NCBI GenBank assembly: GCA_023954135.1
Contig: JAMLIN010000006.1
Coordinates: 1 to 64,000, forward strand
DNA: 64,000 nucleotides
Direction of reading: 5' to 3'
Origin: Burkholderiaceae bacterium
GTDB lineage: Bacteria; Pseudomonadota; Gammaproteobacteria; Burkholderiales; Burkholderiaceae_E
Made by a program: the position numbers and the translations under genes. Shown here piece by piece: positions 1 through 15,348 of this stretch. Below the pieces are notes generated by a model, which saw only the letters and a program-made list of their open reading frames with translations, was not told the DNA's origin and did no database searches. How positions within the stretch are numbered: position 1 is the first letter of the stretch; each line of letters begins with the position of its first letter.

Positions 1-3000
1 GTGCGGCGGCACGAAGCCCGGCTCGGCCACCACCTTGAATTCACCCAGGTTGACTTTGCCGGTCGCGCCGTGATTGCTCAGGGGGATCAGGCGGGCATAA
101 CGCGCCATCACCGGCGTATCGAGCAGGAACGACTGTTCGATGGATGCCCTGCCGAGCTCTCCCTCGAGCACCGTCTCGAAGTCCTTGCCGTCCAGCGACA
201 GGGCCACCGCGAACTCGCGCAGGTGGAACTGGGTGGAAGAGGTGCTGGTGGGGTCGAGCAGGAAGCCCTTCACGGGTATGGGATTCGCTCCCGCCAGCTC
301 GAACGTCGGCTGGGGATGGGGCTCGAATCGGCCTTTCGGCCTGTTGCGCGAGTCGAACCCCAGGGTCGCCCCCGTCCACAGGCCGTACTCGGCAAGGCCA
401 TCGTGGAGCGAGTCCAGGTCCGCGCCGTGCCGCTTCGGATCGAGGTCCGGGCCTGCCACGGGTTTCGCGCCGAGCGCCTTGCCGGCCAGGTTGAAGCCGC
501 CCCGCAGCTCAGGCACCAGGGTCCAGTGGTGACGCGGATCGAGCGGCAGAAACTCCGGTCGGACGTCGACCTCCGCGAAGGCGGCAGCCATGGCGCCGGA
601 CGAATCGACGGCCCGGACATTGAGACGCACTGCGCGATCGCCCAGGGCATCGGCCGGTGCCACCAGCACGAACGGGCGCTCCACTTCGGCGTTGGCGGCA
701 AGTGTCCAGTCACCAGGATCCAGCTCCAGGCGCCAGCGATCGTCGGACAGCACGAGCTCCACATCGGGCTGCCATTCCTCGGTTGTCGGATTCTTCAGTA
801 CCAGCCTGCCGCCCAGTACCTGCTCCCATGGCGAGAACGCCTGGAGCCGGGGCTCCTCGTCGAACCGGATGTCCACCGCGATGGGCAGGTCCGTCACTGG
901 ATCGGCCTGCTGTCCGAACAGATCGAAGGCGTAGGCTCCCTTGCCGCTGACCTTGAGCAGATAGTCGACACCGGGCTCGAGCCTGGCGTCGAAGCGCCCC
1001 GCCTTGCGTTCGTGGCGCAGCAGGTCGGTGCCTCCGTCCCGCTCATCGTGGAGCGCGAACCGGATGCCGGCGGCTTGCGGAATCGCGATGTCGGTGGGCG
1101 CCGCAACCGGTGGCAGGCGGAACCAGTCCACCGCGCTGCGGGTGTGGCCCACCTCGCCGGCGATGCGGCCATGCGCCGGCACGATGGAGGCCTGCCCGGG
1201 AGCATTGTTGGGTTCGCGATCCACCTGCCCGTCGAACAGGGGCAGCCGCTCCAGGCCGAGGTAGTACTCCGCATCGGACACGGTACGCGGCACCAGCGCG
1301 ATGCTGTAGTCCCCCGCCGGCAGGTAGGCATCCCAGACCAGTTCCTCGCCAACCCCGGCATGGATGGCGCTGACCCACTGCATGGCGTCGCCCACCGACA
1401 GCGTGCCATGGACGGCGCCATCGGCCGGCGGGCGCACTCGCACGCGCACATGCTCGGGCCCGGCCAGACTGAACTGGTAAAGGTCCTTGTCGTCCTTCTC
1501 TGCCAGCATCCCATTGCGTTCCTGGCCGAACGCAATGGGTAACGCATTCTGGAAGGAATCGTTCGGCTCGAGTTCCGCATCCGGGTGCGGCGGCCCCTGC
1601 GGGCGCAGGAGCACGCGATAGTCCGAATCCGAACCGGATGCAGCCAGAAAGTAGTCTCCGGGAGTCAGGAACAGATTGTCCAGACGGACTCGTTTCGCGC
1701 CGTGGGCCCTCGCCGACGCGATCCTGCCCCGGCTGTCGTGCAGGGTCAGCTCGAACAGGCTCTCTCCCTGCAGCTGGGCACGCCACAGCTGGGGCTCGCC
1801 GGAGACGGTGAAACGCCAGAAGTCGGTTTCCTGCCGACCGTCGAAACGGCCCGTCGCCGCGGGCTTGCCGTCGGGCCACGCAAGCGCCCATTCCCTGCGA
1901 TCGTTCGGCTCCGCTTCCCGGCCGGGAGTCACCTTGCCGACGGCCCGCCAGGACAGATTCCAGTCACCCTTGCCTCCCCTGGCATCGAGATGGAGCAGAT
2001 GCTCGCCGGGAGCCAGACCGAGATTGTGCAAGGTGACCGCCACTCCACCCTGCCCCTTGCCGTCGACGCACTGCTGATTGGACTGCGCCGGCGGACGCAG
2101 GCACAGGCGCAGCTTGCCGAGCCCGGCATCGGCCGGCGTCACGGCGATCTCCCATACCGTACCGGCCTGCTCCTCGTCGATCGTGAAGCGAAACCAGTCG
2201 GCCCGATCGGTCGCGTCCAGGCTGCCGCTCAAGGCCTGCCCCGGCGACATCTCCACCGCCAGTTGCGCGCTGTCGTTCGGCTCGACCTCCCGTCCTTCGG
2301 CAGCGAGTCCTCCGGGAGCGACGAGCATGCGCTGGGCGGCGAGCTTCCGTGTCCGGGCGACGATGCGATAGTCACCGGCCGCGAGTTGCAGGCCGCTGCG
2401 GCGCAAGGGCAAGCCGCCGGAGCCGCTGATGTCCAGGATGGTGGCGCCGGCGGCATCGAGCAGCGCCACCTCGGCCGTGACACCCAGCGGCGCATGCGCC
2501 ATCAGGGACCACTGCTGGCTCGCCTCCTCCTCGTCGAGGCTGAACGCGTAGACCGTCTGCTCCTGGGACAGCACCGCGCTGGGCTGCCCCTTGCGCAGAT
2601 CCAGCGGCGAATCGGGACCATTGGCATCCGGCACCGGCCGCAGGCGCTCCGATCCCGCCTGGGAGATCTCGACCTCGTAGCTGCCCTCGCCGCCGCTGTG
2701 GGAAACACCGAGCACATAGTTGCCCGGCTCGAGCAGCAGATCCTCGTACAGGGCCGGCCGGCTGCCGTCGCGTGTGCCCAGGGTCGCGAGGATCGGCGGA
2801 CGCGCCTGCAGCTCCAGCCGCGACAGACCGGCATAGCCCGCACCGCCCAGGATCTCGGTCAGGTCCAGGATGTCCATGCGGGTGTGCGCTCCGGCCCGGC
2901 CCGAGAGGCGGATGTTCCAGCGCACACCGGCCGCCTCCTCGTCGATCGACAGGTAGTACGCATCCTGGTCCTCCCCCTGCAGCTCGCCGATGATGCGAAC

Positions 3001-3138
3001 GACCCCCTTTTCAGCGGGCGCGCGCAGCAGCACCGCCTGCTGGATCCCGTCGTTGGGCTCGATGTCGTAGACGAATTCGGTCGCCGCCCCCGCTGGCGCG
3101 CCGGCAAGGAGCAGTGCGCCCAGCAGCAGCGTCCGCAT
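1..3138 (-). CDS. Large secreted protein with PPC-like repeats and a discoidin-like C-terminal part (partial)
   Basis: 1,046 codons are open on this strand and no stop occurs before base 1, so the C-terminus lies outside the window. From ATG 3138 residues 1-18 (MRTLLLGALLLAGAPAGA) are a Sec signal peptide; in-frame GTG codons at 3150 and 3159 are alternatives. E-P-N-D/N motifs start at residues 27, 286, 410, 524 and 642, each followed by a small hydrophobic strand and then a D-x-(W/Y/F)-x-F strand. This is the signature of bacterial pre-peptidase C-terminal (PPC) domains, which are secreted beta-sandwich modules. A degenerate unit lies near residues 171-200. Residues about 880-1046 (for example GFDSRNRPKGRFEPHP, ARYARLIPLSNHG) read like an F5/8-type or NPCBM carbohydrate-binding beta-sandwich. 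No protease or other catalytic motif is visible. It follows the DUF3617 gene by 26 bases and is probably cotranscribed. A surface adhesin or envelope role is an inference only. Confidence 0.85.
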   Translation of the reverse strand, partial: MRTLLLGALLLAGAPAGAATEFVYDIEPNDGIQQAVLLRAPAEKGVVRIIGELQGEDQDAYYLSIDEEAAGVRWNIRLSGRAGAHTRMDILDLTEILGGAGYAGLSRLELQARPPILATLGTRDGSRPALYEDLLLEPGNYVLGVSHSGGEGSYEVEISQAGSERLRPVPDANGPDSPLDLRKGQPSAVLSQEQTVYAFSLDEEEASQQWSLMAHAPLGVTAEVALLDAAGATILDISGSGGLPLRRSGLQLAAGDYRIVARTRKLAAQRMLVAPGGLAAEGREVEPNDSAQLAVEMSPGQALSGSLDATDRADWFRFTIDEEQAGTVWEIAVTPADAGLGKLRLCLRPPAQSNQQCVDGKGQGGVAVTLHNLGLAPGEHLLHLDARGGKGDWNLSWRAVGKVTPGREAEPNDRREWALAWPDGKPAATGRFDGRQETDFWRFTVSGEPQLWRAQLQGESLFELTLHDSRGRIASARAHGAKRVRLDNLFLTPGDYFLAASGSDSDYRVLLRPQGPPHPDAELEPNDSFQNALPIAFGQERNGMLAEKDDKDLYQFSLAGPEHVRVRVRPPADGAVHGTLSVGDAMQWVSAIHAGVGEELVWDAYLPAGDYSIALVPRTVSDAEYYLGLERLPLFDGQVDREPNNAPGQASIVPAHGRIAGEVGHTRSAVDWFRLPPVAAPTDIAIPQAAGIRFALHDERDGGTDLLRHERKAGRFDARLEPGVDYLLKVSGKGAYAFDLFGQQADPVTDLPIAVDIRFDEEPRLQAFSPWEQVLGGRLVLKNPTTEEWQPDVELVLSDDRWRLELDPGDWTLAANAEVERPFVLVAPADALGDRAVRLNVRAVDSSGAMAAAFAEVDVRPEFLPLDPRHHWTLVPELRGGFNLAGKALGAKPVAGPDLDPKRHGADLDSLHDGLAEYGLWTGATLGFDSRNRPKGRFEPHPQPTFELAGANPIPVKGFLLDPTSTSSTQFHLREFAVALSLDGKDFETVLEGELGRASIEQSFLLDTPVMARYARLIPLSNHGATGKVNLGEFKVVAEPGFVPPH

Positions 3139-3164
3139 GGACTCCCGCACGGTGTTCACACGAC

Positions 3165-3869
3165 CTACTTGCCGAACATCTTCCCGAGCGCTCCGCCCAG
3201 GTTCTGGAGGAGATCGTTCGAATCCTGCGACTGGCCCTGCGACGCGCCGGAAGCCTGGCCGCCCCGCGGCTGCCCGGCGGATCCTCCCTGGGTCCCACCC
3301 CCGAGGACGCTGCCGAGCTGGTCGAGGATGCCGCCCCCCTCCCCTCCGGCGACACCCATCTGCAACATGTTGACCTTGGTGCCGTCCTCCATGACGAGAT
3401 CGCCGGGAACGACCCCGTCGGGGCACGCGCCGACATGCCGCGCCTCCTGGATGGTCCTGTCGTTCATCGACTGTCCCATCATCGACCCGGTGGTGACCAT
3501 GTCGGACTGATAGCGCGTGCGCATGTCGCCGGAAATCGTGCCTTCGGAGACCATCCGGCCCATCCCCGCGGGGTTGCAGACACTCCGAACCGCCCAGCGG
3601 TTGCCGCCTTGCGGCGTGATGCTCATCTCGGAGCACATGCCGCCCATGCCGCCCTGGGAGAAGACGCTCATCTTCTCCTGCATGGCGTCATCGATGCACA
3701 TGGAGATCTTCGTCGTTTCCTTGCCGTTCCTGTCCTCCTGGATCGATGTGGTTTCCCAGTAGCCCGCCCGCAGCCGGGGGGCATCGCCGACATCGATCCG
3801 GTTCTGGGCCAGCGCGCCACCGGCGACGGCTGCCGCCGCGAGCGCGATCGTGATCGGGAAGGTCTTCAT
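3165..3869 (-). CDS. DUF3617 family secreted protein
   Basis: A 234-residue exported protein. Residues 1-21 form a Sec signal peptide with a likely cut at ALA-Q (21/22). The body contains the pattern of DUF3617 proteins: an early G-Y-W-E motif, then four cysteines (in SMCIDD, GGMCSE, RSVCNP and VGACPD) that could make two disulfides in the periplasm, and the late ACPDG segment. The last 65 or so residues are rich in Gly, Gln and Ser and look disordered. The molecular function of the family is not known. The gene lies between the end of the aminotransferase operon (219 bases upstream) and the PPC-repeat gene (26 bases downstream), so it may be the first gene of a two-gene envelope operon. Confidence 0.85.
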   Translation of the reverse strand: MKTFPITIALAAAAVAGGALAQNRIDVGDAPRLRAGYWETTSIQEDRNGKETTKISMCIDDAMQEKMSVFSQGGMGGMCSEMSITPQGGNRWAVRSVCNPAGMGRMVSEGTISGDMRTRYQSDMVTTGSMMGQSMNDRTIQEARHVGACPDGVVPGDLVMEDGTKVNMLQMGVAGGEGGGILDQLGSVLGGGTQGGSAGQPRGGQASGASQGQSQDSNDLLQNLGGALGKMFGK

Positions 3870-3990
3870 GGCTGTCGGCTCCTTCTTCGTCTGCGTGGCC
3901 TCGCCTTCGTACAGCCCGCCTCGACGACAGGTACGAACACGCCGGCGCCGGAGGCGCCTCCTCGCAAATTACCTGCCATGCCACGAAGGC

Positions 3991-4012
3991 GCCCCCTTCG
4001 AACGAAGGGGGC
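3991..4012. other. 22-base palindrome between genes
   Basis: GCCCCCTTCG and CGAAGGGGGC flank a central AA, giving a 10-base perfect inverted repeat in the 219-base gap between the aminotransferase stop and the DUF3617 start. No T-run follows on either strand, so it is not a standard intrinsic terminator. It may be a processing or Rho-linked hairpin after the hyu operon. Confidence 0.4.
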
Positions 4013-4088
4013 AGCCACGCCAGAAGAACGGGAATCGCTCGAATTCCGACCGAAAGCCCTGACCGACCATCGTCAGAGCACTGGACGG

Positions 4089-5399
4089 CTACCCGGCGAC
4101 ACCTCTCCATTCGCTCAGCGCGACATCGAACAGGACATCCGCGATAGCGGCCAGCCGCGCCTCGCCCATCGGCAGGGACAGAAAGATGTCGCCGCGCGGG
4201 GTCAGGGCGAGCCCGCGCTCGAGGCAGGCCATGTGCACGAGCAGCCGGAACCCGGATGTCGCCGGATCGATCTCCGAGATACGGGTCGGTACGTGCTCGC
4301 CGAGATGCAGACTGAGGATCGAGCCGATGCCGCTCAGCCTCACGCCCGCTCCGGCCGCGGCGAAGCGCTCGTTGAGCGAGATCCGGAACGCCTCGGTCCT
4401 CTGCAGGAAGGCGTCGGCCGCCTCCGGCGTGAAGACCGACCGCAGCCCCGCGAGGCCTCCGCTCATCGACATGACGTTGTTGTTGAAGGTGCCCGCATGC
4501 TTGAGCGCGTCGGCTCGCCGCGGGTCGTAGCGCTGCATCAGCTCCTTCCTGCCGCCGAAGGCGCCGAAGGAAAGGCCCGCTCCGAGGTACTTGCCGAGGC
4601 TCGTCATGTCGGGCACGACACCGTAGTGCCCCTGCAGGCCCGCGCGGCCGAGGCGCGAGGTCTTGACCTCGTCGAATATCAGCATTGCGCCGACTCGCGT
4701 CGCCTCCGCGCGCAGGGTCTGGAGAAAACGGGCATCCCCCGGAATGTTGCCGGCCGCGCCCAGCAGGGGCTCGATGAGGATGGCCGCCAGATCGGCCGCG
4801 TTCGCGGCGATGCACGCGCACGTCGCCTCGATGTCGTTGTAGGGAGCGACGACGAACTCGAACGGAACGTTCATCGGGCTGCCGCCGCCGGCGAAGGTCA
4901 GCACCCCGCCGTGGTAGCCGCCGTCGAAGACCAGGATCCGCTTGCGGCCCGTCGCGATGATCGCCGTCAGCAGGGAGAAGAGGTTGGCTTCGGTGCCCGA
5001 GTTGCAGAACCGTATCCGTTCGACCGAGGGGAATCGCTGGCACAGCAGCGCCGCCAGCTCGCTCTCGGCCGTGGTCGGTCCGCAAAGCACCAGTCCGCGA
5101 TCCAGCGCTTCCCGCATGGCCGACATGATCACCGGATCGCTGTGCCCGTAGAGCCCGGCGGAGAACTCCCCGGCGCAATCGATGTAGTCGAACCCGTCGA
5201 TGTCGGTAAGCGTATCCGCGCGGCCGGAGGCGACGACGAACGGAAAGGGATCGAAATGCAGCACGCTGCGCGTGTTGCCGCCCGGCATCCACTGCTGCGC
5301 GCGCTCGTGGCAGGCTCTGGCCTTCGGACGCTTGCGCGCATAGGCTTCACGCAGTTCCGCGAGTCTCTCCGTCGCTCTCACTTTCTCGGTCGTGCTCAT
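4089..5399 (-). CDS. Class III aminotransferase (glutamate-1-semialdehyde aminomutase-like)
   Basis: A 436-residue PLP enzyme of fold type I, class III. Visible marks are the FCNSGTEANLF phosphate-binding segment, the I-F-D-E-V motif that holds the pyridine ring, and the Schiff-base lysine at residue 270 in SLGKYLG. The sequence resembles the glutamate-1-semialdehyde 2,1-aminomutase-like branch (AGTFNNNVMSM segment), but it is unlikely to be the heme-pathway HemL because it is the last gene of a catabolic operon. Its ATG overlaps the end of the preceding aminotransferase by 4 bases (ATGA), which suggests translational coupling. The likely job is transamination or amino-group migration on an intermediate from the hydantoinase step; the substrate is not deducible. 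Confidence 0.9.
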   Translation of the reverse strand: MSTTEKVRATERLAELREAYARKRPKARACHERAQQWMPGGNTRSVLHFDPFPFVVASGRADTLTDIDGFDYIDCAGEFSAGLYGHSDPVIMSAMREALDRGLVLCGPTTAESELAALLCQRFPSVERIRFCNSGTEANLFSLLTAIIATGRKRILVFDGGYHGGVLTFAGGGSPMNVPFEFVVAPYNDIEATCACIAANAADLAAILIEPLLGAAGNIPGDARFLQTLRAEATRVGAMLIFDEVKTSRLGRAGLQGHYGVVPDMTSLGKYLGAGLSFGAFGGRKELMQRYDPRRADALKHAGTFNNNVMSMSGGLAGLRSVFTPEAADAFLQRTEAFRISLNERFAAAGAGVRLSGIGSILSLHLGEHVPTRISEIDPATSGFRLLVHMACLERGLALTPRGDIFLSLPMGEARLAAIADVLFDVALSEWRGVAG

Positions 5400-6730
5400 C
5401 TCAGGCTCTCCAGGGCAGCGTCCAGCGATTTCGCGAGCCGCGCCACGATCTCGGCAAGCTCGTCCTCACGCGCGTTGAGCGCAGGGGCCAGCAGCACATG
5501 GTCACCGTTCCTGCCATCGATGGTGCCGCCAGAGGGATAGATCATCAACCCGTTCGTCATGGCCGCGGCCTTGACGACTGCATGGACCCCGAGAACGGGA
5601 TCGAACGGGAGCTTGCCGCCGCGCTCTCGAACCAGTTCCAGCCCGAGGAACAGCCCGCGCCCGCGAATATCGCCGACATGAGGATGCTGCCCGAACCTGT
5701 CGTCGAGCAGGCGCCGCAGCATGGCGCCGCTGCGGGCGGCTGCGGCGACGAGACCTTCCTCCTCGATCACGCGCTGCACCGCGAGCGCGCCGGCGCATGC
5801 CAGCGGGTGCCCCATGTAGGTGAAGCCGTGAGCCAGCGCACCGGAGCCGGATGCGATGGCGTCGGCAATCCGCTCGTGCAGGATCACGGCGCCGATCGGC
5901 ACGAAGCCGCCGCCGAGACCCTTGGCGACCGTGACCAGGTCGGGCACGACGCCGTCCTCCTGGAAGGCAAAATCATGGCCCGTCCGCCCGCTGCCGCACA
6001 TGATCTCGTCGAGGATCAGGAGCACGCCGTAGCGGTCGCAGATCTCCCGGACGGCCCGAAGATAACCATCGACGGCGGGTACGCAGCCCAGCGTGGCGCC
6101 CACGACCGGCTCGGCGATGAATGCCGCCACCGTTTCCGGCCCGAGGCGCAGGATCGCGGCTTCCAGCTCGGCCGCCGCGCGCAGCCCGTAGTCCCGTTCG
6201 CTCTCGTCGTCGCGACGATGGCGATAGGCATAGCAGGGAGCGATCAGCTCGGCATCGAACAGCAGCGGCTCGTAGAGCGCGCGGCGTGGCAGGTTGCCGC
6301 CGACCGACAGCGCGCCGAGCGTCGAACCGTGATAGCTCTGGCGACGGGCGATGATCCTGCCACGCTTCGGGTCGCCGCGCTCCACCCAGTACTGGCGGAC
6401 GAGTTTCAGCGCCGTCTCCACCGCCTCGGATCCACCGGAACAGAAGACGGCCCTGGACAGGCCGCCGGGCGCCCTGGCCACGAGATGGGCGGCCAGCTCC
6501 TCCGCGGGTTCGCTGGTGAAGAAGGAACCATGGACATAGGAAACGGCATCGAGCTGGCGCAGGATAGCCTCGCGCACGCGCGCGTCCCCATGCCCGATGG
6601 CGGCCACCGCGGCCCCGCCGGACACGGCGTCGAGGTAGCGCCGGCCGTCCTTGCCGGTCACCCAGAGACCGTCGGCCCGCGCCACGACGGGCAGCGGGAT
6701 CCCCGTCTTCCGATGGAGGATGGCACTCAT
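5396..6730 (-). CDS. Class III aminotransferase (omega-amino acid type)
   Basis: A 444-residue class III PLP aminotransferase of the omega-aminotransferase kind. It shows the FCSGGSEAVETALK segment, the LILDEI motif and the PLP lysine at residue 270 in TVAKGLGGG, followed by the GFTYMGHPLACAGALAV segment that typifies this group. These enzymes move amino groups between non-alpha amines (beta-alanine, GABA, taurine or diamines) and 2-oxoacids. It overlaps hyuB upstream and the second aminotransferase downstream by 4 bases each, so the three proteins are probably made together. It is clearly different in sequence from its neighbour, so the pair is not a recent duplication. Substrate unknown. 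Confidence 0.92.
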   Translation of the reverse strand: MSAILHRKTGIPLPVVARADGLWVTGKDGRRYLDAVSGGAAVAAIGHGDARVREAILRQLDAVSYVHGSFFTSEPAEELAAHLVARAPGGLSRAVFCSGGSEAVETALKLVRQYWVERGDPKRGRIIARRQSYHGSTLGALSVGGNLPRRALYEPLLFDAELIAPCYAYRHRRDDESERDYGLRAAAELEAAILRLGPETVAAFIAEPVVGATLGCVPAVDGYLRAVREICDRYGVLLILDEIMCGSGRTGHDFAFQEDGVVPDLVTVAKGLGGGFVPIGAVILHERIADAIASGSGALAHGFTYMGHPLACAGALAVQRVIEEEGLVAAAARSGAMLRRLLDDRFGQHPHVGDIRGRGLFLGLELVRERGGKLPFDPVLGVHAVVKAAAMTNGLMIYPSGGTIDGRNGDHVLLAPALNAREDELAEIVARLAKSLDAALESLR

Positions 6731-8412
6731 GCCTTGGCCGCCACGCCGGGATAGTAGCGCTGGAGCCGGTCGTTCTCCCGAGCATCCGCGCTACGCTCGG
6801 CGACCGGGCCGTACCCGCCGCCGCCCGGTGTGTGCACCTCGATCCAGTCGCCGGGCCCGAGTACGAAGTCCTCGCCCTTGGAGACATGCTCCGGCACCGT
6901 CGCCCTGCCTTTCTGCATGACCGCGATACGGTTGGGGGCCCCTGCCTCGCCGCCGAGAATTCCCGGCGGCCCGAAGCGGCCGTGCTCCATCAGGAAGGAG
7001 GCCTTGCCCTGGCCGCGCAGCAGACGGATCCTGTAGTTGATGCCGAAGCCGCCGCGATACCGGCCGGCCCCACCCGATCCCTCATGCAGGGCGAAGGTCT
7101 CGAAGAGCAGCGGATAGCGCTGCTCCATGATCTCCACAGGCTGGCTCTTCGAGATGCCGATGGTCGAGCAGCCGTTGGACAGGCCGTCGCCGTTCCACCA
7201 GCCGCCGTAACCCCCGCCGGAGAAGTAGTACATGATGTAGTTCTCGCCGGTTTCCGGGTCGTAGCCGCCGATGCCGAGATTGCCGCTCGTGCCGGCGGGG
7301 GCGGCGAAGAGCCGGCCGGGAATCGCCTTGGCCAGCGCGAGGAACACGGCCTCCATGATGCGTTGCGACACCTCCGCCGCACAGCCCGCGACGGGGCGGG
7401 GATACTCCGCATAGACGAAGGTGCCGACCGGCTTCGGGACGTGGATCGGCTTGAAGCAGCCCGCGTTCAGGGGCACGTCCGGGAAGATATGCTTCAACCC
7501 GACATAGACCGCCGACAGCGTCGTCGCCCAGACCGAGTTCAGCGGCCCCTGGCAGGGTGGGCTCGATTTCGAAAGATCCAGCTCGATCTCGCTGCCCTCC
7601 ACCTTGATCGACACATGGATTTCCAGCGGCTCGTTCACGACGCCGTCGCTGTCCATGAACGCGCTCGCCTCATAGACCCCGTCGGGAATCGTTTCGATAT
7701 GGCTGCGCATCATGCGCTCCGATCGCCGCTCCAGCTCCGCGATCGCCGTCTCGACCACATCCTGCCCGTAGCGGTCGAGCAGCGCGGTGAGCCTGCGCGC
7801 ACCGGTCAACAGCGCGGCGATCTGCGCCTTGATGTCGCCGATGCGCTCCTGCGCGACGCGGATGTTGGACAGCACCATCTGGACGAGATCGTCCTCCATC
7901 CTGCCGCGCCGCACCAGCTTCACCGGCGGGATGCGCAAGCCCTCCTGATGGATCTCGGTCGCCGTGCTGTTGAAGCCACCCGGCACCATGCCGCCCGTGT
8001 CAGGCCAGTGCCCGGTATTGGACAGGTAGCACCACAGCCTGCCCTTGTAGTAGAACGGGCGCACCATCTTCACGTCCATGAGGTGCGTACCCCCGAGATA
8101 GGGATCGTTGACGAGGATGACGTCGCCGTCCTCCAGGTCGTTCCGCGCCTCGATCACGCACCGGGTCGTCTCCTGCATCACGCCGAGGAAGATCGGCAGG
8201 CCGAGCTCGCCCTGCGCGATCATGCGACCGTCGCCAAGGCCATAGATGCCGTTGGACCGGTCGAATCCTTCGGAGATCACCGGCGAGAACGACGTCTTCT
8301 CGTGGACGAGGTCCATCTCCGAGCACACCTGCTGGAGCCCCTTCTCGATGACGGTGAGGGTGACGGGATCGATGGCTTGGCCCGGCGCCGCGGCCTGCTG
8401 CTTGTTCGACAT
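6727..8412 (-). CDS. hyuB: Hydantoinase B/oxoprolinase family subunit
   Basis: A 561-residue protein of the HyuB family, the second subunit of ATP-dependent cyclases/hydrolases such as N-methylhydantoinase, 5-oxoprolinase and acetone or acetophenone carboxylase. Family marks are the N-terminal DPVTLTVIEKGLQQVCSEMD, the NDPYLGGTHLMDVKM segment, LSNTGHWPDTGG and the Gly-rich C-terminal HTPGGGGYGP. It starts 30 bases after hyuA and overlaps the next aminotransferase by 4 bases. HyuA and HyuB normally form a heteromeric cytosolic enzyme that uses ATP to open a lactam or imide ring or to carboxylate a ketone. Sequence alone does not say which of these happens here. Confidence 0.93.
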   Translation of the reverse strand: MSNKQQAAAPGQAIDPVTLTVIEKGLQQVCSEMDLVHEKTSFSPVISEGFDRSNGIYGLGDGRMIAQGELGLPIFLGVMQETTRCVIEARNDLEDGDVILVNDPYLGGTHLMDVKMVRPFYYKGRLWCYLSNTGHWPDTGGMVPGGFNSTATEIHQEGLRIPPVKLVRRGRMEDDLVQMVLSNIRVAQERIGDIKAQIAALLTGARRLTALLDRYGQDVVETAIAELERRSERMMRSHIETIPDGVYEASAFMDSDGVVNEPLEIHVSIKVEGSEIELDLSKSSPPCQGPLNSVWATTLSAVYVGLKHIFPDVPLNAGCFKPIHVPKPVGTFVYAEYPRPVAGCAAEVSQRIMEAVFLALAKAIPGRLFAAPAGTSGNLGIGGYDPETGENYIMYYFSGGGYGGWWNGDGLSNGCSTIGISKSQPVEIMEQRYPLLFETFALHEGSGGAGRYRGGFGINYRIRLLRGQGKASFLMEHGRFGPPGILGGEAGAPNRIAVMQKGRATVPEHVSKGEDFVLGPGDWIEVHTPGGGGYGPVAERSADARENDRLQRYYPGVAAKA

Positions 8413-8442
8413 GCTGTTCCTTGTTCGGTTCCCGATCGGCCG

Positions 8443-10470
8443 CTACTGCAGATCGACGATGATGTTGCCGTATTCGTCGACGCGCGATGTCGTTCCGGGA
8501 TCGAGCACCAGCGTGGCATCGGCCTGCTCGACGATCGCGGGTCCTTCGATGCTCGCGCCCAGCGGCAGCAACTCGCGCCGGTAGATGCGCGTCGCCATCC
8601 ATCGGCCATCGAAACAGGCCTCTCTCGTACCGACCTGCGCATCGGCGAGCGATCCCTCGCGGGGACGGAAGATGGACAGATCGATCCTGTCCCGACGTCC
8701 GACCACGGTGCTCCGGACATTGATCAGCATCGGGACCATCTCGGGGAGCTCGAGCTCGAACCGCTGCTTGTATGCCTGGACGAATCGCTCCAGCACGGTT
8801 ACGGCGTCGAAGACATCGCCGTCCTGTCCGATCCGCAATACATGCGACTGGCCCCTGAACAGCAGGTCGAACTCGTGCATCGCCTCGACCTTTCCGACGT
8901 CCACGTTCTCCCTGGCGAGAAGCGCGCGGCCGTCGCTTGCCTGCTGGCGCATGATCGCGGTGATCGCATCCGCGTCGATTCCGCGCATGGGCATGTTGAC
9001 GGTCTGGACGAAATCGTGCCTGACGTCGGCCAGCGCGCAGCCAAGCGCCGACGTCAGGCCGGGGAAGCGCGGGACCAGCACGCGCGGAATGCCCAGCTCG
9101 CGCGCAATCGCGACGGCATGGAGCGGCCCCGCCCCGCCGAAAGGCATCAGCGCGAAATCCCTCGGGTCGTGGCCCTTCTCGATCGATATGAGACGGATCG
9201 CGCCGGCGAGCTCCGAGATGGCGACCTCGATGACCGCCGCCGCCGCGGCGGTTGCATCGAGCCCGAGCGGCCTGCCGATCTGCTCCTGCAGCGCCGCCGC
9301 GATACGGGCCATGGGAGCCGGCCTGTCGGAGCCCGTCACCGATCCGGGATTCAGGCGCCCAAGGAGGAAGTTCGCATCGGTGATCGTCACCCGGTCGCCG
9401 CCCCGGTCGTAGCCGATCGGTCCCGGGAACGACCCGGCGCTTTCCGGCCCAACGCGAAGCATGCCGGCCCTGTCGATACGGGCGAGGCTCCCTCCCCCTG
9501 CGCCGACGGTATGCATGTCGATCATGGGGATGCGGATCGGCACGCCGTAGGCAAGATCCTTCTCCGCGGTGATGACCGGGCGTCCGCCGACGACCAGGGC
9601 GACATCGAAGCTGGTGCCCCCCATGTCGCCGGTGATGATGTCGGGAATCCCCGCCGCCTTCGCGATCTCGGCGGAAGCGAGCACACCGGCGGCCGGTCCG
9701 GACATGACCGTGTGCACCGCATGGCCGGTGACGAGCGACGACGACATCATCCCGCCATTGGCCTGCATGACCAGCAGCTCGTTGCGAAAGCCGCCTTCCT
9801 TCAGCTGGCTTGCAACACGCGTGATGTACTGGCTGACGATCGGGCTTATCGACGCATGGATCGCCGCCGTGGTACCGCGCTCGAACTCGCGCATCTCGCG
9901 GATGATCTCGTGGCCGGCGATGACATGCTCGTTGGGCCACATCTCGCGCGCGATGCGCACCGCCAGGGCCTCGTGCTCCGGGTTCACGTAGGCATGGAGG
10001 AAATGCACGACGAGCGATTCGACGCCCGCATCGATCAGATCGCGCACCGCGGCCCTGACGTCATCCTCGGCAAGCGGCGTGACGACGCGGCCCTGCGCAT
10101 CCATGCGCTCGGTGACCTCCAGTCGGAACCGACGCTCGATCAGGGGCTGGAAGTTTCCCGAGAGCCCGTAGGCATGAGGACGGGTGCGCCGCCCGAGCTC
10201 CAGCACATCCCTGAATCCTCGCGTGGTGATGAGACCGGCGCGCGCGCCCTTGCGCTCGAGCACCGCGTTCGTACCGGCGGTCGTGCCATGCACCAGCCAG
10301 TCGATTGCCTCGAGCGGCACGCCGAGCTCCTCGATTCCCTGGAGAAAGCCCTTGGCGCGATCGTCCACCGTCGTCGGGACCTTGGCGGTCGTGAACGTCC
10401 CGGCCTTCGTATCCAGCATCAGGAAGTCGGTGAACGTACCGCCTACGTCGACACCCACGCTAACAGCCAT
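8443..10470 (-). CDS. hyuA: Hydantoinase A/oxoprolinase family subunit
   Basis: A 675-residue HyuA-family subunit, the ATP-binding partner of HyuB. It opens with VGVDVGGTFTDFLM, the actin-fold phosphate loop of the family, followed by HGTTAGTNAVLERKGA, the GPAAGV segment and GDMGGTSFDVALV, then a hydantoinase A domain with FGGAGPLHAVAIAREL near the middle. The ATG has a GGTGGAG ribosome-binding site about 6 bases upstream. This is the first gene of the hyuA-hyuB-aminotransferase-aminotransferase operon. It diverges from an IclR regulator across a 147-base gap with overlapping promoter-like elements, so IclR control is likely. Confidence 0.94.
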   Translation of the reverse strand: MAVSVGVDVGGTFTDFLMLDTKAGTFTTAKVPTTVDDRAKGFLQGIEELGVPLEAIDWLVHGTTAGTNAVLERKGARAGLITTRGFRDVLELGRRTRPHAYGLSGNFQPLIERRFRLEVTERMDAQGRVVTPLAEDDVRAAVRDLIDAGVESLVVHFLHAYVNPEHEALAVRIAREMWPNEHVIAGHEIIREMREFERGTTAAIHASISPIVSQYITRVASQLKEGGFRNELLVMQANGGMMSSSLVTGHAVHTVMSGPAAGVLASAEIAKAAGIPDIITGDMGGTSFDVALVVGGRPVITAEKDLAYGVPIRIPMIDMHTVGAGGGSLARIDRAGMLRVGPESAGSFPGPIGYDRGGDRVTITDANFLLGRLNPGSVTGSDRPAPMARIAAALQEQIGRPLGLDATAAAAAVIEVAISELAGAIRLISIEKGHDPRDFALMPFGGAGPLHAVAIARELGIPRVLVPRFPGLTSALGCALADVRHDFVQTVNMPMRGIDADAITAIMRQQASDGRALLARENVDVGKVEAMHEFDLLFRGQSHVLRIGQDGDVFDAVTVLERFVQAYKQRFELELPEMVPMLINVRSTVVGRRDRIDLSIFRPREGSLADAQVGTREACFDGRWMATRIYRRELLPLGASIEGPAIVEQADATLVLDPGTTSRVDEYGNIIVDLQ

Positions 10471-10497
10471 GCCATCTCCACCTAAATTCCGATTTTT

Positions 10498-10549
10498 GAA
10501 ACATAATTTCGGTTATTGACATTCAAGCGATGACCAATTGCCTTGTCAA
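10498..10549. promoter_or_regulatory. Divergent hyuA/iclR promoter region with possible IclR operator
   Basis: Leftward toward hyuA there is TTGACA (10549-10544), a 17-base spacer and TTGAAT (10526-10521). Rightward toward iclR there is another TTGACA (10516-10521) without a clear -10. The segment 10498-10510 is GAAA-N5-TTTC, which resembles the E. coli IclR site pattern (GAAA-N3-TTTC). It lies just downstream of the proposed hyuA -10, a position that suits repression. Prediction by eye only. Confidence 0.4.
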
Positions 10550-10617
10550 GCGGCGACGGCTTGTTGTCGATCATCACCGCGTGTATTGAGAAGCCTGCCA
10601 ACGGACAGGAGGTTGCA

Positions 10618-11388
10618 GTGGCAGCAAACGGTTCAGGGCCGATCGAGCGCTATTTCCAGATCGTCGAGATGGTCGCGGCCTCGCATGACGGCCTGACGCT
10701 GACGGACATCGCCCAGCTCACGAGGCTTCCCAAGCCGACGACCCACCGGCTGGTCCGGACGCTGGTCGAGCTGGGCATCCTTGCCAGCGACGAGACCTGG
10801 TACAAGATGTTCCGGGTCGGCCCACGAATGTGGCGAATGCTGCATCTCGGCGTCGAGCGCAACACGGCCAAGGCCTACAGCCAGATCGTCATCGACGAGC
10901 TCGCCGCGCGCTTCGGCGAGACCGCCTACGTCGTGCGCCTCGCCCATGATCACGTCCTGTCGATCGCCCGGTCCGCGCCCGATCAGGGCCATCGGCTGCA
11001 TGTGCTCCCGGGCGAGCACCTGCCGCTGCATGCCGCCTCTTCCGCCAAGGCGATCCTCGCCTTCCAGGACGACGCGACGGTCCGCTCCCGCCTTCATGAA
11101 CCTCTGGAACGGCTGACGTCGCACACGCACGCAAGGGTGCAGGACCTGTTGCGCGAGCTCGAGAACGTGCGAAAGCTGGGCTATGCGATCTGCGACCGGG
11201 AGATCGACGAGAACGTGATGGCCTACTCCTGCCCCGTGCCCATCGAGCACATCGGGGTGATCTACGCGATCGGGGTCACCGGCCCGGTCACGCGGCTGCG
11301 CGAGCATCCGGTGGAATACTGGATCGAGCCGATGAAGGCCGCGGCCGAGCGCCTGAGCGCCATGCTGACGACGCTCGAGGAACATTGA
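10618..11388 (+). CDS. IclR family transcriptional regulator
   Basis: A 256-residue regulator. The open frame extends upstream to 10543, but the best start is GTG 10618, which has a perfect AGGAGG at 10607-10612 five bases before it; the extra upstream residues do not look like an IclR N-terminus. Residues about 10-70 form the winged helix-turn-helix (LTLTDIAQLTRLPKPTTHRL), and the rest is the IclR effector-binding domain (LHAASSAKAILAF, GYAICDREIDENVMAYSCPV). It diverges from the hyu operon and converges on the TRAP operon, so it probably controls one or both in response to the imported or processed compound. The effector is unknown. Confidence 0.9.
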   Translation: MAANGSGPIERYFQIVEMVAASHDGLTLTDIAQLTRLPKPTTHRLVRTLVELGILASDETWYKMFRVGPRMWRMLHLGVERNTAKAYSQIVIDELAARFGETAYVVRLAHDHVLSIARSAPDQGHRLHVLPGEHLPLHAASSAKAILAFQDDATVRSRLHEPLERLTSHTHARVQDLLRELENVRKLGYAICDREIDENVMAYSCPVPIEHIGVIYAIGVTGPVTRLREHPVEYWIEPMKAAAERLSAMLTTLEEH

Positions 11389-11415
11389 ACGCGGGCCTCT
11401 CGGAGTCATGATGCG

Positions 11416-12729
11416 TCAGAAGAGCGCGTTGGGGACGACCAGGATGATGGCCGGCGCCATCATGCAGATGACGATCGCCAGCAGCATCAGGACGACGAAG
11501 GGAACGACGGAGAAGTAGATGTCGATCATGCTGACCGATGGCGGTGCCACGCCTCGCAGGTAGAACAGGTTGTAGCCGAAGGGAGGGGTGAGGAACCCGA
11601 CCTCCATCATCATGATGAAGAGGATGCCGAACCAGACCGGGTCGAACCCGAGCTTGATGATGATCGGCACGAAGATCGGCACCGTGATCATGATGATGCC
11701 GACGGTGTCCAGCAGCATCCCCATGACGAACAGGATCGAAAGCATGCCGACGAGGATGACCCAGCGGTTGACCTCGAGATTCAGCACGAGCCCCTCGATC
11801 AGCCGTGATGCGCCCATGGCCGTGTAGAAGGTGGACAGCGCGGTGGCGCCGATGACGATCCAGAAGATCATGCAGCTGAGATGGAGCGTCTCCTCGCAGG
11901 CTTCGCGAACCACCGGCCAGTTCAGCCGCCCGAGAACCAGCGCACAGAGAATCGAGCCTCCCGCGCCGATCGCGCTGGCTTCGGATACGCTGGCAATCCC
12001 TACGAGGATCGATCCCATCACCGTGACGATGAGAAGCACCGGCAGGACGAGCGCTTTCAGGCTGACGAGCTTCTCGCCCCAGCTGTACCGCTTCATGTCC
12101 CGTCCACCGCTGATCTCGGGCTGAAACCAGCCGCGGGTGACGAGATAGACGATGAACAGCGCCGACATCAGCAGGCCGGGCAGCAACCCGCCGGCATAGA
12201 GCTTGCCGATGGAAGTGTTGCCCACGATGCCGTAGACGATCATGGTGACGCTCGGCGGAATCAGGATGCCGAGCGACCCGCCGGCGGCCACCGATCCCAG
12301 GGCGATCCCCTTGCCGTAGCCGCGCGCCAGCATGGCGGGAACCGCGATCATGCCCATGGAGATGGTCGCCGCGCCGCTGATGCCGGCCATGGCCGCGAAC
12401 AAGGTGCAGATCGCGACGGTACCGATGGCCAGCCCGCCGCGCAGCCCGCCGAAGAACTTCTGCATCGTGTCGTACAGGTCTTCGGCGATCCGGGACTTCT
12501 GGAGCATCGCCGCCATGAAGATGAACAGCGGGATCGCCAGATACTCGAAGCTGGACGCCGTCGCAAAGGCGCGGATCGGCACCATGTTCAGCGCCATCGG
12601 GCTCCAGAAGAAGTAGATCATGCCGATCGACAGGCCGCCGAGCGCGAAGGCCACGGGCACACCGACCACGAGCAGGACGAGCATCAGGCCGAAGAGCAGG
12701 CTCGTCGTGAAGACGGGATCGGCCATCAC
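11416..12729 (-). CDS. dctM: TRAP transporter large permease (DctM)
   Basis: A 437-residue multi-span inner-membrane protein of the DctM/SiaM family, the sodium- or proton-driven channel subunit of a tripartite TRAP importer. It has many hydrophobic helices and the family segments [18 protein letters not shown] near the C-terminus and GGSLGILIPPSVTMIVYG in the middle. It overlaps dctQ by 4 bases and is the last gene of the dctPQM set, with iclR converging 27 bases away. It should move the ligand delivered by the DctP protein encoded at 13294-14343 into the cytoplasm. The closeness to hyuAB suggests, without proof, that the ligand is their substrate. Confidence 0.93.
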   Translation of the reverse strand: MMADPVFTTSLLFGLMLVLLVVGVPVAFALGGLSIGMIYFFWSPMALNMVPIRAFATASSFEYLAIPLFIFMAAMLQKSRIAEDLYDTMQKFFGGLRGGLAIGTVAICTLFAAMAGISGAATISMGMIAVPAMLARGYGKGIALGSVAAGGSLGILIPPSVTMIVYGIVGNTSIGKLYAGGLLPGLLMSALFIVYLVTRGWFQPEISGGRDMKRYSWGEKLVSLKALVLPVLLIVTVMGSILVGIASVSEASAIGAGGSILCALVLGRLNWPVVREACEETLHLSCMIFWIVIGATALSTFYTAMGASRLIEGLVLNLEVNRWVILVGMLSILFVMGMLLDTVGIIMITVPIFVPIIIKLGFDPVWFGILFIMMMEVGFLTPPFGYNLFYLRGVAPPSVSMIDIYFSVVPFVVLMLLAIVICMMAPAIILVVPNALF

Positions 12730-13235
12730 GCGCCCCGGCCGTGGAGCGCATCACGCCAGCTCCTCAGGATGTTCAGCACCCAGGCGAGCATCAGCAGCGC
12801 GCTGCCCACGGGCACCATCGCCTTGGCCAGCCACACCGGACCGCCCCAGTCGCCGGTAGCCGAACGCTCGCCCATCGCAAAGGACTTGAGCGCGAACTCG
12901 TACCCGAAGGAAAGCAGCACCCAGATGAAAAGCGCGAACAGCGTCGTCGAGACTACCGTGTCGACGATCGCCTTGGTCAAGGGCGAGAAACGCTCGTGGA
13001 TCGCGTCGACCCTGACGAACTTGCCGCGCGCCAGCGCCCACGGACCACCAAGGAAGATGAACGACACCAGCAGCCAGGTGCTGACATCGCTCGCCCAGCG
13101 AACCGACCAGCCCAGAATGGCGCGCGAGAACATCTCGTAGAGCATGATCGCGATGATCGCCAGGACGAACAGGGCGACCACGCGACCGATGCCTGCGATG
13201 ACGCGTTCGAGGGCATCGATGACCGTCCGGAGCAT
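12726..13235 (-). CDS. dctQ: TRAP transporter small permease (DctQ)
   Basis: A 169-residue protein of the DctQ family with four predicted membrane helices; the typical W-A-x-(D/E)-V-S-T-W-L segment is visible as RWASDVSTWLL near residues 65-75. DctQ pairs with DctM to form the membrane part of a TRAP importer. It lies between dctP (58 bases upstream) and dctM (4-base overlap), the usual order. The ribosome-binding site before ATG 13235 is weak. Confidence 0.9.
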   Translation of the reverse strand: MLRTVIDALERVIAGIGRVVALFVLAIIAIMLYEMFSRAILGWSVRWASDVSTWLLVSFIFLGGPWALARGKFVRVDAIHERFSPLTKAIVDTVVSTTLFALFIWVLLSFGYEFALKSFAMGERSATGDWGGPVWLAKAMVPVGSALLMLAWVLNILRSWRDALHGRGA

Positions 13236-13293
13236 GGTTCTCGCCAGGAAAGACGCCCGGACGAAGGGCTCGTCCGGGCGCGCATGAGATGGA

Positions 13294-14343
13294 CTACTTT
13301 GCCGCGCCGGGTTCGAGCCGACCGAGATCCCGCAGGAACTCGTTCAGCAGCGCAACGCCGCGCGCCGCGAAGCCGCCCTGCTTCTCATAGGCCTGCCACA
13401 GTTCCCGCGCATCCGCTTCCATGGATTCCCATTCCTTGTCGGGGATCGTGGAGATCTGCACGCCGGCGGCCTGCATCTTCTGCATCGCCTTGGCGTCGTT
13501 GTTCATGCTGATGAGGATGTAGTCGAGGGAAGAGGCGACGACCGCCTCCTGAAGGATGGCCTTCAGGTCATCGGGCAGCGCCTTCCAGGCGGCGTCGTTG
13601 ACCGCGAAGAAATTGTTCGGCACCGGCATCGGCGACGGCTGCACGTAGTACTTCGCGACCTCGTGGAACGAGTTGTTCATGTTGCCGGCCGGGCTCGCCC
13701 AGCGAGCCGCATCCAGGACACCCGTGGCGAGCGCGGTGTAGATCTCACCGCCGCTCAGGAACACCGGCGATGCCCCCATCTTCTTGTACCACTCCGCCTC
13801 GAGCCCGAAGGAGCGGATCTTCAGGCCCTTGAAGTCGGCCTTCGAGGTGATCGGCTTCTTCGACATGATGTCCCAGGCCGGCGAGAGCTGCGGACCGAGA
13901 TAGAACACGCCATGCGGCGCATAGGCCTCGCGGGCAAGCTCGAGGAAGCCTCGCTTGTAGAAGAAGTTGAAGCGCTCGATCGGCGTGCGCAGCGAGCCGG
14001 GAACGCCGCTTTCCAGGTTCGCGAACGGGCCGAGCTTGCCGGCGTAGTAGCCGCCGGTCAGCACCGCCATTTCGGTGACGCCCGCCCCGACCGCTTCGAG
14101 ACCGTCGGCGATCGGGAACAGCGCCCCCACCGGATGGATATCGAAAGTGATGCGGCCGTTCGACATCTGCGTGGCGAGCCTGGCGAATTTCTCCTCCAGT
14201 GCCACGTAGCCTGGCTCGCCGGCGTTCAGGTTGCTCTGGATGCGCCAGTGCACGGGCTTCTGGGCCCAGGCGGCATTGCCCGCGAGTGCGGCAACGGTCG
14301 CAACGGCTGCGGCCAGGAAAAGACTCTTGGCTCGGCGGATCAT
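13294..14343 (-). CDS. dctP: TRAP transporter substrate-binding protein (DctP)
   Basis: A 349-residue periplasmic binding protein. Residues 1-27 are a signal peptide ending in AWA-Q. The mature part reads as a DctP-family protein: WRIQSNLNAGEPGYVALEEKFA at the N-terminus, then MSNGRITFDIHPVGALFP, and a conserved GLKIRSFGLEAEWYKKMGASP segment with the ligand-contacting arginine. A strong AAGGAGG lies upstream of the ATG. It is the first gene of dctPQM and diverges from a crotonase gene across 216 bases. The ligand is probably a carboxylate, as for most TRAP systems, but cannot be named. Confidence 0.92.
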   Translation of the reverse strand: MIRRAKSLFLAAAVATVAALAGNAAWAQKPVHWRIQSNLNAGEPGYVALEEKFARLATQMSNGRITFDIHPVGALFPIADGLEAVGAGVTEMAVLTGGYYAGKLGPFANLESGVPGSLRTPIERFNFFYKRGFLELAREAYAPHGVFYLGPQLSPAWDIMSKKPITSKADFKGLKIRSFGLEAEWYKKMGASPVFLSGGEIYTALATGVLDAARWASPAGNMNNSFHEVAKYYVQPSPMPVPNNFFAVNDAAWKALPDDLKAILQEAVVASSLDYILISMNNDAKAMQKMQAAGVQISTIPDKEWESMEADARELWQAYEKQGGFAARGVALLNEFLRDLGRLEPGAAK

Positions 14344-14358
14344 GCTCTCCTCCTTAAA

Positions 14359-14409
14359 GTTTCGATAAACGAGACTTAATCTTGTTAATTGAAACTCTCG
14401 CTTATTTCA
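14359..14409. promoter_or_regulatory. Divergent dctP/crotonase control region with inverted repeats
   Basis: The AT-rich stretch upstream of dctP holds two imperfect palindromes: GTTTCGATAAACGAGAC (14359-14375) and TGAAA-N10-TTTCA (14390-14409). Both share GAAA/TTTC half-sites with the element in front of hyuA, so one IclR-type regulator could bind both regions. No convincing -35/-10 pair was found. Low confidence. Confidence 0.3.
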
Positions 14410-14559
14410 GCTTTCGGGTCAAGAAAATCGTGGGCGACATCGCAAGCTCGAAACTGCGACTACCATACGTGCGTACCGCAACAGCGCCACTGACCGGCGC
14501 CTGCCGGCCGGCCGAAAAATCCTCGATGCCGACGACAGGCGAACATGAGGAAACCATCA

Positions 14560-15348
14560 ATGATCCAGGACCGCTACGGCGATGTCGCCGCCACCTTGCA
14601 GGACCATGTCGTGACGCTGGAGATCCAGCGACCGCCGCACAACTTCTTCGACCATGCGCTGATCCGCGACCTCGCGGATGCGCTGCGCGACATCGATGCG
14701 ACCACCGAGGCCCGCGTCGTCCTGCTCTGCGCGCAGGGCAAATCGTTCTGCGCCGGCGCCAACTTCGCCAGCGGCCGGGACTCGGTGCTCGACAGCGCGG
14801 CACCGCGCGGGCGCAATCCGCTCTACGAGGAAGCCGTGAGGCTCTTCTCGAACAAGAAGCCGGTGATCGCCGCGGTCCAGGGCGCCGCCATCGGCGGCGG
14901 CTTCGGTCTCGCGGTGTTCGCGGACTTCCGCGTCGCCAGTCCGGACGCCCGATTCGGCGCCAACTTCGTCAAGCTCGGCATCCATCCGGGCTTCGGGCTG
15001 ACCTACACACTGCCACGGCTGATCGGCGAGCAGCGGGCCGCCGAGATGTTCCTGACGGGCGAGCGGATCAACGGCGAAACGGCGCTGGCCTGGGGCCTCG
15101 TCGATCGGCTCGTGCCGGCGGAATCGCTGCGCGAGGACGCGTTCGCGTTCGCCCGCTCGATCGCGGTCAACGCCCCGCTGGCGGTACAGTCCACGCGCCT
15201 GACGCTGCGCCGCGAGATGGCCGCGCGCGTCGAGGCGCAGACCGACCGCGAGGGCGCCGAGCAGACCTGGCTCGCCGCCACCCAGGATCACAAGGAAGGG
15301 GTGCGTTCCGTCGCAGCACGCGAGCCGGGGAATTTCCAGGCGCGCTGA
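14560..15348 (+). CDS. Enoyl-CoA hydratase/isomerase family protein
   Basis: A 262-residue crotonase-fold protein. ATG 14560 has GAGG nine bases upstream; an in-frame ATG at 14545 is an alternative. The CoA-binding and oxyanion-hole segments are present (SFCAGANFAS and AAVQGAAIGGGFGLAVFADFRVAS), as is the conserved GIHPGFGLTYTLPRLIG region. The usual catalytic-glutamate positions are not obviously both present, so hydratase, isomerase or hydrolase activity are all possible. It diverges from the TRAP operon and faces serS, separated by a hairpin. It may act on a CoA ester produced by the neighbouring catabolic genes. Confidence 0.88.
   Translation: MIQDRYGDVAATLQDHVVTLEIQRPPHNFFDHALIRDLADALRDIDATTEARVVLLCAQGKSFCAGANFASGRDSVLDSAAPRGRNPLYEEAVRLFSNKKPVIAAVQGAAIGGGFGLAVFADFRVASPDARFGANFVKLGIHPGFGLTYTLPRLIGEQRAAEMFLTGERINGETALAWGLVDRLVPAESLREDAFAFARSIAVNAPLAVQSTRLTLRREMAARVEAQTDREGAEQTWLAATQDHKEGVRSVAAREPGNFQAR

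Follow-up and report, generated by a model that had tools for sequence, protein, structure and literature searches.

A truncated PPC-array gene at a contig end of a Burkholderiaceae bacterium probably encodes a double-vWA adhesion or receptor protein linked to a transglutaminase-like partner gene

Introduction

PPC domains normally sit at the end of secreted proteases, and an array of them with no protease in view raises the question of what kind of protein it belongs to. Such an array is encoded at the left edge of a 64,000-nucleotide stretch of DNA from a Burkholderiaceae bacterium (GenBank assembly GCA_023954135.1, contig JAMLIN010000006.1, positions 1 to 64,000), hereafter called the window. 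The original prediction, made from the sequence and its open reading frames, described a secreted protein with five PPC repeats that crosses the window edge. Here, we describe the domains of the visible part of this protein, the architecture of its relatives, and a gene that accompanies them. Rather than a protease without its enzyme, the protein resembles an adhesion or receptor protein. On balance, and with some reservation, we favor an exported protein of this kind with two vWA domains, a stalk of PPC and discoidin domains, and a pseudo-transglutaminase as partner.

Results

The gene is cut by the end of the contig

Translation of window positions 3138 to 1 (minus strand) gives a single frame that, as predicted, is open for 1,046 codons and crosses the left edge without a stop. 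The window corresponds to positions 1–64000 of contig C73 of the source genome (G000), and since its base 1 is the true end of that contig, the truncation is an assembly end. The frame is certainly coding, because 15 related N-terminal halves, one of them from the same genome, align with the protein at 27–34% identity, most over its whole length. These sequences and the window protein make up the 16-row set of N-terminal halves used below. Inspection by eye of residues 1–19 (positions 3082–3138) showed a hydrophobic stretch followed by AGAA, which reads as a probable Sec signal peptide, so that the protein is probably secreted, in agreement with the earlier reading.

The visible part holds six PPC-like units and two further domains

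The predicted motifs were all found in the translation, with EPND at residues 27, 286, 410, and 524 and EPNN at residue 642, and the last four are spaced by 124, 114, and 118 residues. An AlphaFold model built on the 16 rows had a mean pLDDT (predicted local distance difference test) of 81.8 and a pTM (predicted template modeling score) of 0.54, and 888 of the 1,046 residues had a pLDDT of at least 70. The strands of this model could be divided into eight consecutive β-sandwich domains, all encoded on the minus strand, the mutual arrangement of which is uncertain.

Six of the eight domains are PPC-like. Units 1 (residues 20–165, positions 2644–3081), 4 (residues 407–517, positions 1588–1920), and 6 (residues 640–742, positions 913–1221) were assigned from the model and from profile comparison, and they begin with EPND at residue 27, EPND at residue 410, and EPNN at residue 642, respectively. 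Unit 3 (residues 283–404, positions 1927–2292, EPND at residue 286) has its best structural match in the collagen-binding domain (CBD) of ColG (5iku; Z 17.1, root mean square deviation [rmsd] 1.9 over 111 residues, 22% identity), and unit 5 (residues 520–634, positions 1237–1581, EPND at residue 524) matches CBD3 of ColH (3jqw; Z 15.6). Units 1 and 5 also carry a DxDxY motif, at residues 57–61 and 550–554. The remaining unit, unit 2 (residues 166–282, positions 2293–2643), is the only one of the six that lacks an EPND-type motif, and it shows the same strand pattern in the model and aligns with unit 3 in hhalign with 98.8% probability. Profile comparison of the segments related units 1–5 pairwise with probabilities of 94–99.6%. 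Unit 6 joined units 3, 4, and 5 (94–98%) and unit 1 (82%), but showed no relation to unit 2. The two other sandwiches stayed outside this group (46% at most). The comparison thus gives six PPC-like units, so that the type of repeat was recognized correctly at the outset, whereas the number five was one short, the unit without EPND having been passed over.

Pfam PPC (PF04151), the lack of which had been named as a refutation, has no match in the window protein at E ≤ 1, but used as the sole test it would be misleading. The same family matches 4 of the 16 rows at E ≤ 0.1 (best 2.6e-6), and the 16-row profile matches the ColG tandem CBD 5iku at E 2.4e-12, from sequence alone. Despite the missing Pfam match, fold and profile confirm the PPC reading, and the structure prediction, also suggested originally, bears it out through the ColG match of unit 3.

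The last two domains had been overlooked. Residues 748–864 (positions 547–897) form an Ig-like β-sandwich in the model. Of the 16 rows, 11 match Pfam FixG_C and 2 match NPCBM_assoc at E ≤ 0.1, the window row having neither. Residues 868–1042 (positions 13–537) were assigned as an F5/8 type C (F5/8C; discoidin, CBM32-like) domain. Here, the Pfam match (PF00754) has an E-value of 4e-5 but, at 24.2 bits, stays below the curated cut-off of 28.2; the corresponding score is 31.8 bits in the paralog described later, and 14 of the 16 rows match at E ≤ 0.1. The fold agrees, in that residues 873–1043 match discoidin-type structures, including galactose oxidase, CBM32, and SUN domains, with Z of 15–17.

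Neither Pfam nor NCBIfam revealed an enzyme or peptidase domain in the visible part, as had been noted before; NCBIfam gave a sub-threshold match to the DVUA0089 family. A structure search against viral models returned loose multi-sandwich matches only. Anti-phage defense was considered and set aside, since PADLOC gave no match at E ≤ 0.01 for the window protein, its paralog, the two transglutaminase-like proteins of the genome, or the DUF3617 protein encoded upstream.

Related proteins continue into two vWA domains

A scan of genome contigs with the single protein found no relative, but an alignment query did, locating 23 loci in named genomes. One diverged paralog lies on contig C2 of the window genome (positions 1402–6795, minus strand); it has 1,797 residues and is 38% identical over residues 186–1044 of the query. 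Its PPC array and F5/8C domain are followed by two more sandwiches, the latter of them small, and by two vWA domains. Pfam recognizes the second vWA domain, and the first was assigned from the model and the motif. In the model of the C-terminal half (mean pLDDT 83.0, pTM 0.65), the predicted first vWA domain superimposes on integrin α1 I domains (2b2x; Z 20.4, rmsd 2.4 over 172 residues), and the predicted second one on 4fx5 (Z 23.1), Bacteroides BatB (3ibs; Z 20.3), and the vWF domain of the pilus-tip protein Mfa5.

In 13 of the 23 loci (L016–L018, L020–L024, L026–L028, L030, and L031), the PPC part is joined in frame to a C-terminal half of this type. In each of these 13, which are all the related loci that extend past the F5/8C domain, and in the paralog, the protein ends in two vWA domains; L022 carries two full genes of this type, so that the set of C-terminal halves comprises 15 sequences from 14 loci. 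Pfam VWA matches all 15, and both D-x-S-x-S motifs are kept in each of them, as are T393 and D394 of the first and T596 and D623 of the second vWA domain. vWA domains with the residues of a metal-ion-dependent adhesion site (MIDAS) bind ligands via a divalent metal. The 13 complete members, counted from the starts chosen and without L030 and L031, whose starts are unclear, have 1,689–1,823 residues (median 1,793), which implies that the window protein probably lacks 640–780 residues. Judged by its relatives, the lost part probably consisted of about 640–780 residues ending in two vWA domains with MIDAS-type residues. An array without a visible protease, which had seemed odd, is indeed what the window shows, but the oddity comes from the contig end.

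One could argue that the protein is a secreted protease or glycoside hydrolase with its catalytic domain past the contig end. In solved structures, enzymes are commonly flanked by PPC and CBM32-type domains, and the end of the protein is missing. All 13 loci that proceed beyond the F5/8C domain nevertheless go into vWA domains, there is no catalytic Pfam domain in the 16 N-terminal (E ≤ 0.1) or 15 C-terminal halves (E ≤ 0.01), and PLipase_C_C and CarboxypepD_reg, which are among the matches, are accessory domains. We consider such an enzyme very improbable. A protease with a PPC tail was likewise rejected as a likely reading, no peptidase having been found in the visible part or, by Pfam, in the halves of the relatives.

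In the remaining loci, L019 and L025 stop at contig ends before the vWA part, and eight others (L029 and L032–L038) show no vWA counterpart; the contig of L029 ends nearby. Four of these, L032–L035, are complete frames of 565–579 residues that consist of PPC units and match those of the window protein only, not its F5/8C domain. Hence, a PPC array alone does not predict vWA domains; the F5/8C domain and the similarity to the 13 loci over the whole length do. L032–L035 come from Deltaproteobacteria and Myxococcota, and several have a lipoprotein-like cysteine near the N terminus by eye. In the epsilonproteobacterial L029 (positions 9809–11182), the frame stops at 457 residues, although the tblastn match runs about 100 bases further; a pseudogene, a frameshift, or chance may account for the difference.

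The leftward extension that had been proposed stops at base 1 of C73, and the missing 3′ part was not found elsewhere in the assembly, either with the C-terminal half of the paralog or with the 15-row profile. This bears on a further alternative, namely that the window gene is a degraded or shortened paralog that has lost its vWA half and is kept as a free-standing PPC-discoidin binding protein. The absence of a second vWA half from the assembly, the long branch of the window protein (see later), and the existence of PPC-only relatives (L032–L035) would fit such a history; the frame, on the other hand, is intact over 1,046 codons and leaves the contig in frame, and most of the model is confident. 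A shortened paralog seems improbable to us.

A transglutaminase-like gene accompanies most vWA-type genes

Upstream of the paralog on C2 lies a gene for a 788-residue protein (L005, positions 6846–9209) with a Pfam Transglut_core match above the cut-off. A transglutaminase-like gene is present at this locus and in 12 of the 15 loci L016–L028, L030, and L031, the exceptions being L018, L025, and L026. The 8 other loci, which show no vWA half, all lack it. Counted without the truncated L019, L025, and L029 and without the window genome, the linkage is 11/13 for vWA-bearing loci versus 0/7 for PPC-only loci (Fisher p = 4.6e-4, uncorrected for relatedness and for differing locus lengths). The partner gene may be upstream, downstream, convergent, or divergent, and because order and strand differ between loci, the pairing survives rearrangement. 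An Indioceanicola plasmid found in a separate search also carries both genes. At L022, two full-length vWA paralogs (positions 850–6174 and 9983–15346) flank one transglutaminase-like gene (positions 7097–9451), and a single partner may serve two receptors there.

The core of the partner reads GN-[AST]-[LA]-D in all 14 aligned copies at the column that we take, from the general transglutaminase motif, to correspond to the catalytic cysteine. Judging from this alignment, the partner probably lacks the catalytic cysteine and would then be no LapG-type enzyme. Both partner copies of the window genome match Transglut_core, with no LapG peptidase family listed. Hydropathy indicated hydrophobic segments near the C terminus in several copies, and in 9 of the 14 two adjacent cysteines (CC) occur among the last 130 residues, which suggests a tail that is exported and disulfide-bonded or membrane-anchored.

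A different role is also conceivable, in which the vWA/transglutaminase-like pair would be a periplasmic rather than a surface scaffold for envelope maintenance or assembly, with periplasmic glycans or proteins as ligands of its PPC and discoidin domains. BatA/BatB vWA proteins have been linked to the same processes, and the predicted second vWA domain resembles Bacteroides BatB, as mentioned previously; the hydrophobic C-terminal segments of the partner and a Sec-type N terminus with no outer membrane or export signal recognized by eye point the same way. PPC and F5/8C domains, however, are typical of secreted proteins, and the N-terminal half also occurs in Thermomicrobiales and Chloroflexia (L019 and L025, both cut before the vWA part). 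We know of no classical outer membrane in these two groups. Such a scaffold deserves mention, but we regard it as unlikely.

A second gene pair may span an assembly gap

Two PPC-array genes and two transglutaminase-like genes were detected in the window genome at the thresholds used. One pair is adjacent on C2, and the other two genes are both cut off by contig ends (C73:1 and C93:1), the second partner gene running off the left end of C93 with its first ~37 residues missing. The complementary ends of C73 and C93 would suit an arrangement of both genes on one strand, as seen in L017, L023, L028, and L031, with approximately 2–2.5 kb missing between the contigs, and C93 is probably the neighbor of C73.

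Family placement and distribution

In a tree of the N-terminal halves, the 12 other proteobacterial and desulfobacterial rows are separated from the window protein with a support of 84; its branch, at 1.86, is among the longest, and the paralog groups with the sequences from genome G028, Thioalkalivibrio, and Alcaligenes. The tree points to a deep paralog, the exact place of which is unsure.

Both genes occur together in Pseudomonadota and Thermodesulfobacteriota, and in Thermomicrobiota the partner gene stands beside an array gene that is cut before the vWA part; the vWA protein was also found in a Trueperaceae genome. Close to the window genome, the family is rare. Four of 101 relatives (own genome included) matched at E ≤ 1e-3, namely the window genome, G028, G027, and G035, and a full-length relative was present in one of the 100 others (G028). 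In G027 and G035, only short PPC stretches match, and the proteins that contain them are larger and, by eye, have RTX-like repeats; both were set aside. Order-wide and phylum-wide draws gave 1/300 and 1/398 at E ≤ 1e-20, in both cases the window genome alone, with sensitivity limited by the scoring of at most two candidates per genome listed.

When the paralog on C2 (L005) was compared with its ortholog in G028, which belongs to another genus of this family, a tract of ~3 kb (L012, ~7131–10131) proved near-identical: 15 successive 200-column blocks are 97.5–100% identical (mean 99.5%), and the rest of the genes mostly 80–93%. This tract may reflect recombination or a chimeric assembly.

Gene neighborhood of the window gene

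A DUF3617 gene (positions 3165–3869, minus strand) lies immediately upstream, 26 bases ahead of the ATG of the window gene. Using a model built from the two DUF3617 proteins themselves, the same upstream neighbor was found in Alcaligenes endophyticus (L021), the only one of 17 loci searched besides the window, and no paper on DUF3617 was found in the open PMC literature. Further along the minus strand (positions 4089–10470) is a cluster of genes for two class-III aminotransferases and for the B and A subunits of a hydantoinase/oxoprolinase, with frames behind it that look, by eye, like an IclR-type regulator and the large subunit of a TRAP transporter; this is probably a catabolic operon.

Discussion

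The anatomy described previously is well supported, and from it we infer a function. The product of the window gene would be large, about 1,700–1,820 residues, and would be exported by Sec to the envelope or the exterior of the cell. In it, six PPC sandwiches together with the Ig-like and discoidin-like domains would form a stalk with several ligand-binding faces. The lost C terminus would carry two integrin I-domain-like vWA domains with metal-ion-dependent adhesion sites, and the vWA and discoidin domains would allow metal-dependent binding of a protein or glycan ligand, in adhesion or as a cell-surface receptor. The second half of this putative two-gene module would be a transglutaminase-fold protein, exported as judged from its N terminus and devoid of the catalytic cysteine, which would serve the vWA protein as binding partner, anchor, or regulator rather than act as a protease, and which may gate or anchor ligand binding.

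The PPC units offer some detail on how binding could occur. The clostridial collagenases have one to a few such units at the C terminus of the enzyme, and the window protein shares the PPC/CBD fold and the EPND motif with ColG, ColH, and protease E495. It differs from PPC-bearing proteases in that no peptidase domain was found and in that its six units are N-terminal in a protein whose relatives end in vWA domains. The PPC domains of protease E495 bind proteins via D26, D28, Y30, and Y/W65, residues that were shown to matter (PMC3327674), and a DxDxY motif is present in two of the window units. The PPC sandwiches are probably Ca2+-stabilized; the ColG CBDs require Ca2+ for collagen binding and a Grimontia PPC segment does not (PMC6168687), and given this difference, Ca2+ dependence of the window units is only likely.

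The pairing of vWA and transglutaminase-fold proteins has precedents. MoxR–DUF58–vWA (BatA/B)–TgpA operons encode both kinds of protein together, as the present loci do, but the vWA protein of the present family is soluble-looking, multidomain, and about 1,800 residues long, and its partner lacks the catalytic cysteine motif. The mussel matrix protein PTMP1 (4cn8) also has two tandem vWA domains (Z 19.7, but rmsd 17.3 over 333 residues); organism and flanking domains are unrelated, and the fold alone is in common. The nearest functional parallel is ArtA, a vWA-bearing RTX adhesin that is encoded near a transglutaminase-like cysteine proteinase and promotes macrophage binding (PMC9430717). The LapA/ArtA adhesins and the present proteins have in common a large exported repeat stalk, a C-terminal vWA region, and a transglutaminase-fold protein encoded nearby (PMC9430717). 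They are set apart by the Sec-type N terminus (by eye), by PPC and discoidin domains in place of VCBS repeats, and by a second vWA domain; unlike LapG/BTLCP, the partner lacks the Cys motif in all 14 copies. No RTX, retention-module, or type 1 secretion system (T1SS) family was found by Pfam in the paralog (E ≤ 1) or in the 15 C-terminal halves (E ≤ 0.01), with no dedicated test for a T1SS signal. By analogy, the window pair may work like an adhesin module, but outside the LapA/ArtA class.

Several observations weigh against an adhesion or receptor protein with two vWA domains. The vWA and discoidin folds also match unrelated proteins, with TFIIH subunits and SUN domains among the best, and a fold that is so widespread is by itself no proof of adhesion. 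The complete PPC-only frames show that arrays of this kind occur without vWA domains, and with its vWA half missing from the assembly, the window protein could end differently. A pTM of 0.54 leaves the arrangement of its domains uncertain. No outer-membrane or other surface signal was recognized by eye, which weakens the case for surface exposure, and no experiment on any family member was found in the open PMC literature. Because the window protein stands outside the other rows on a long branch, its function may have drifted, and the support of 84 is below the 95 mark. As to the partner, linkage is lacking in L018 (10 kb flanks) and in L026, the adjacency of C93 is drawn from two complementary contig ends only, and the poorly resolved partner tree (4 of 11 inner branches starred, 5 open) is neutral on the pairing of C93 with the window gene.

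All domain families involved are known; what may be new is their assembly and the pairing within vWA adhesion or receptor proteins. A bolder reading, which we put forward tentatively, is a two-gene envelope system that joins a PPC-discoidin-double-vWA receptor to a nucleophile-less transglutaminase-fold protein, the former LapG-like enzyme having become a non-catalytic lock, ligand, or anchor. No description of the gene pair or of the domain assembly was found in the open PMC literature, and it is conceivable, if doubtful, that such a system is both undescribed and widely scattered.

With these results, an odd truncated repeat protein becomes part of a defined gene pair with a clear anatomy. 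The pair poses a testable puzzle, namely what role a pseudo-transglutaminase may have for a vWA receptor, given that the MIDAS residues are kept in all 15 C-terminal halves and the Cys motif is missing from all 14 partners.

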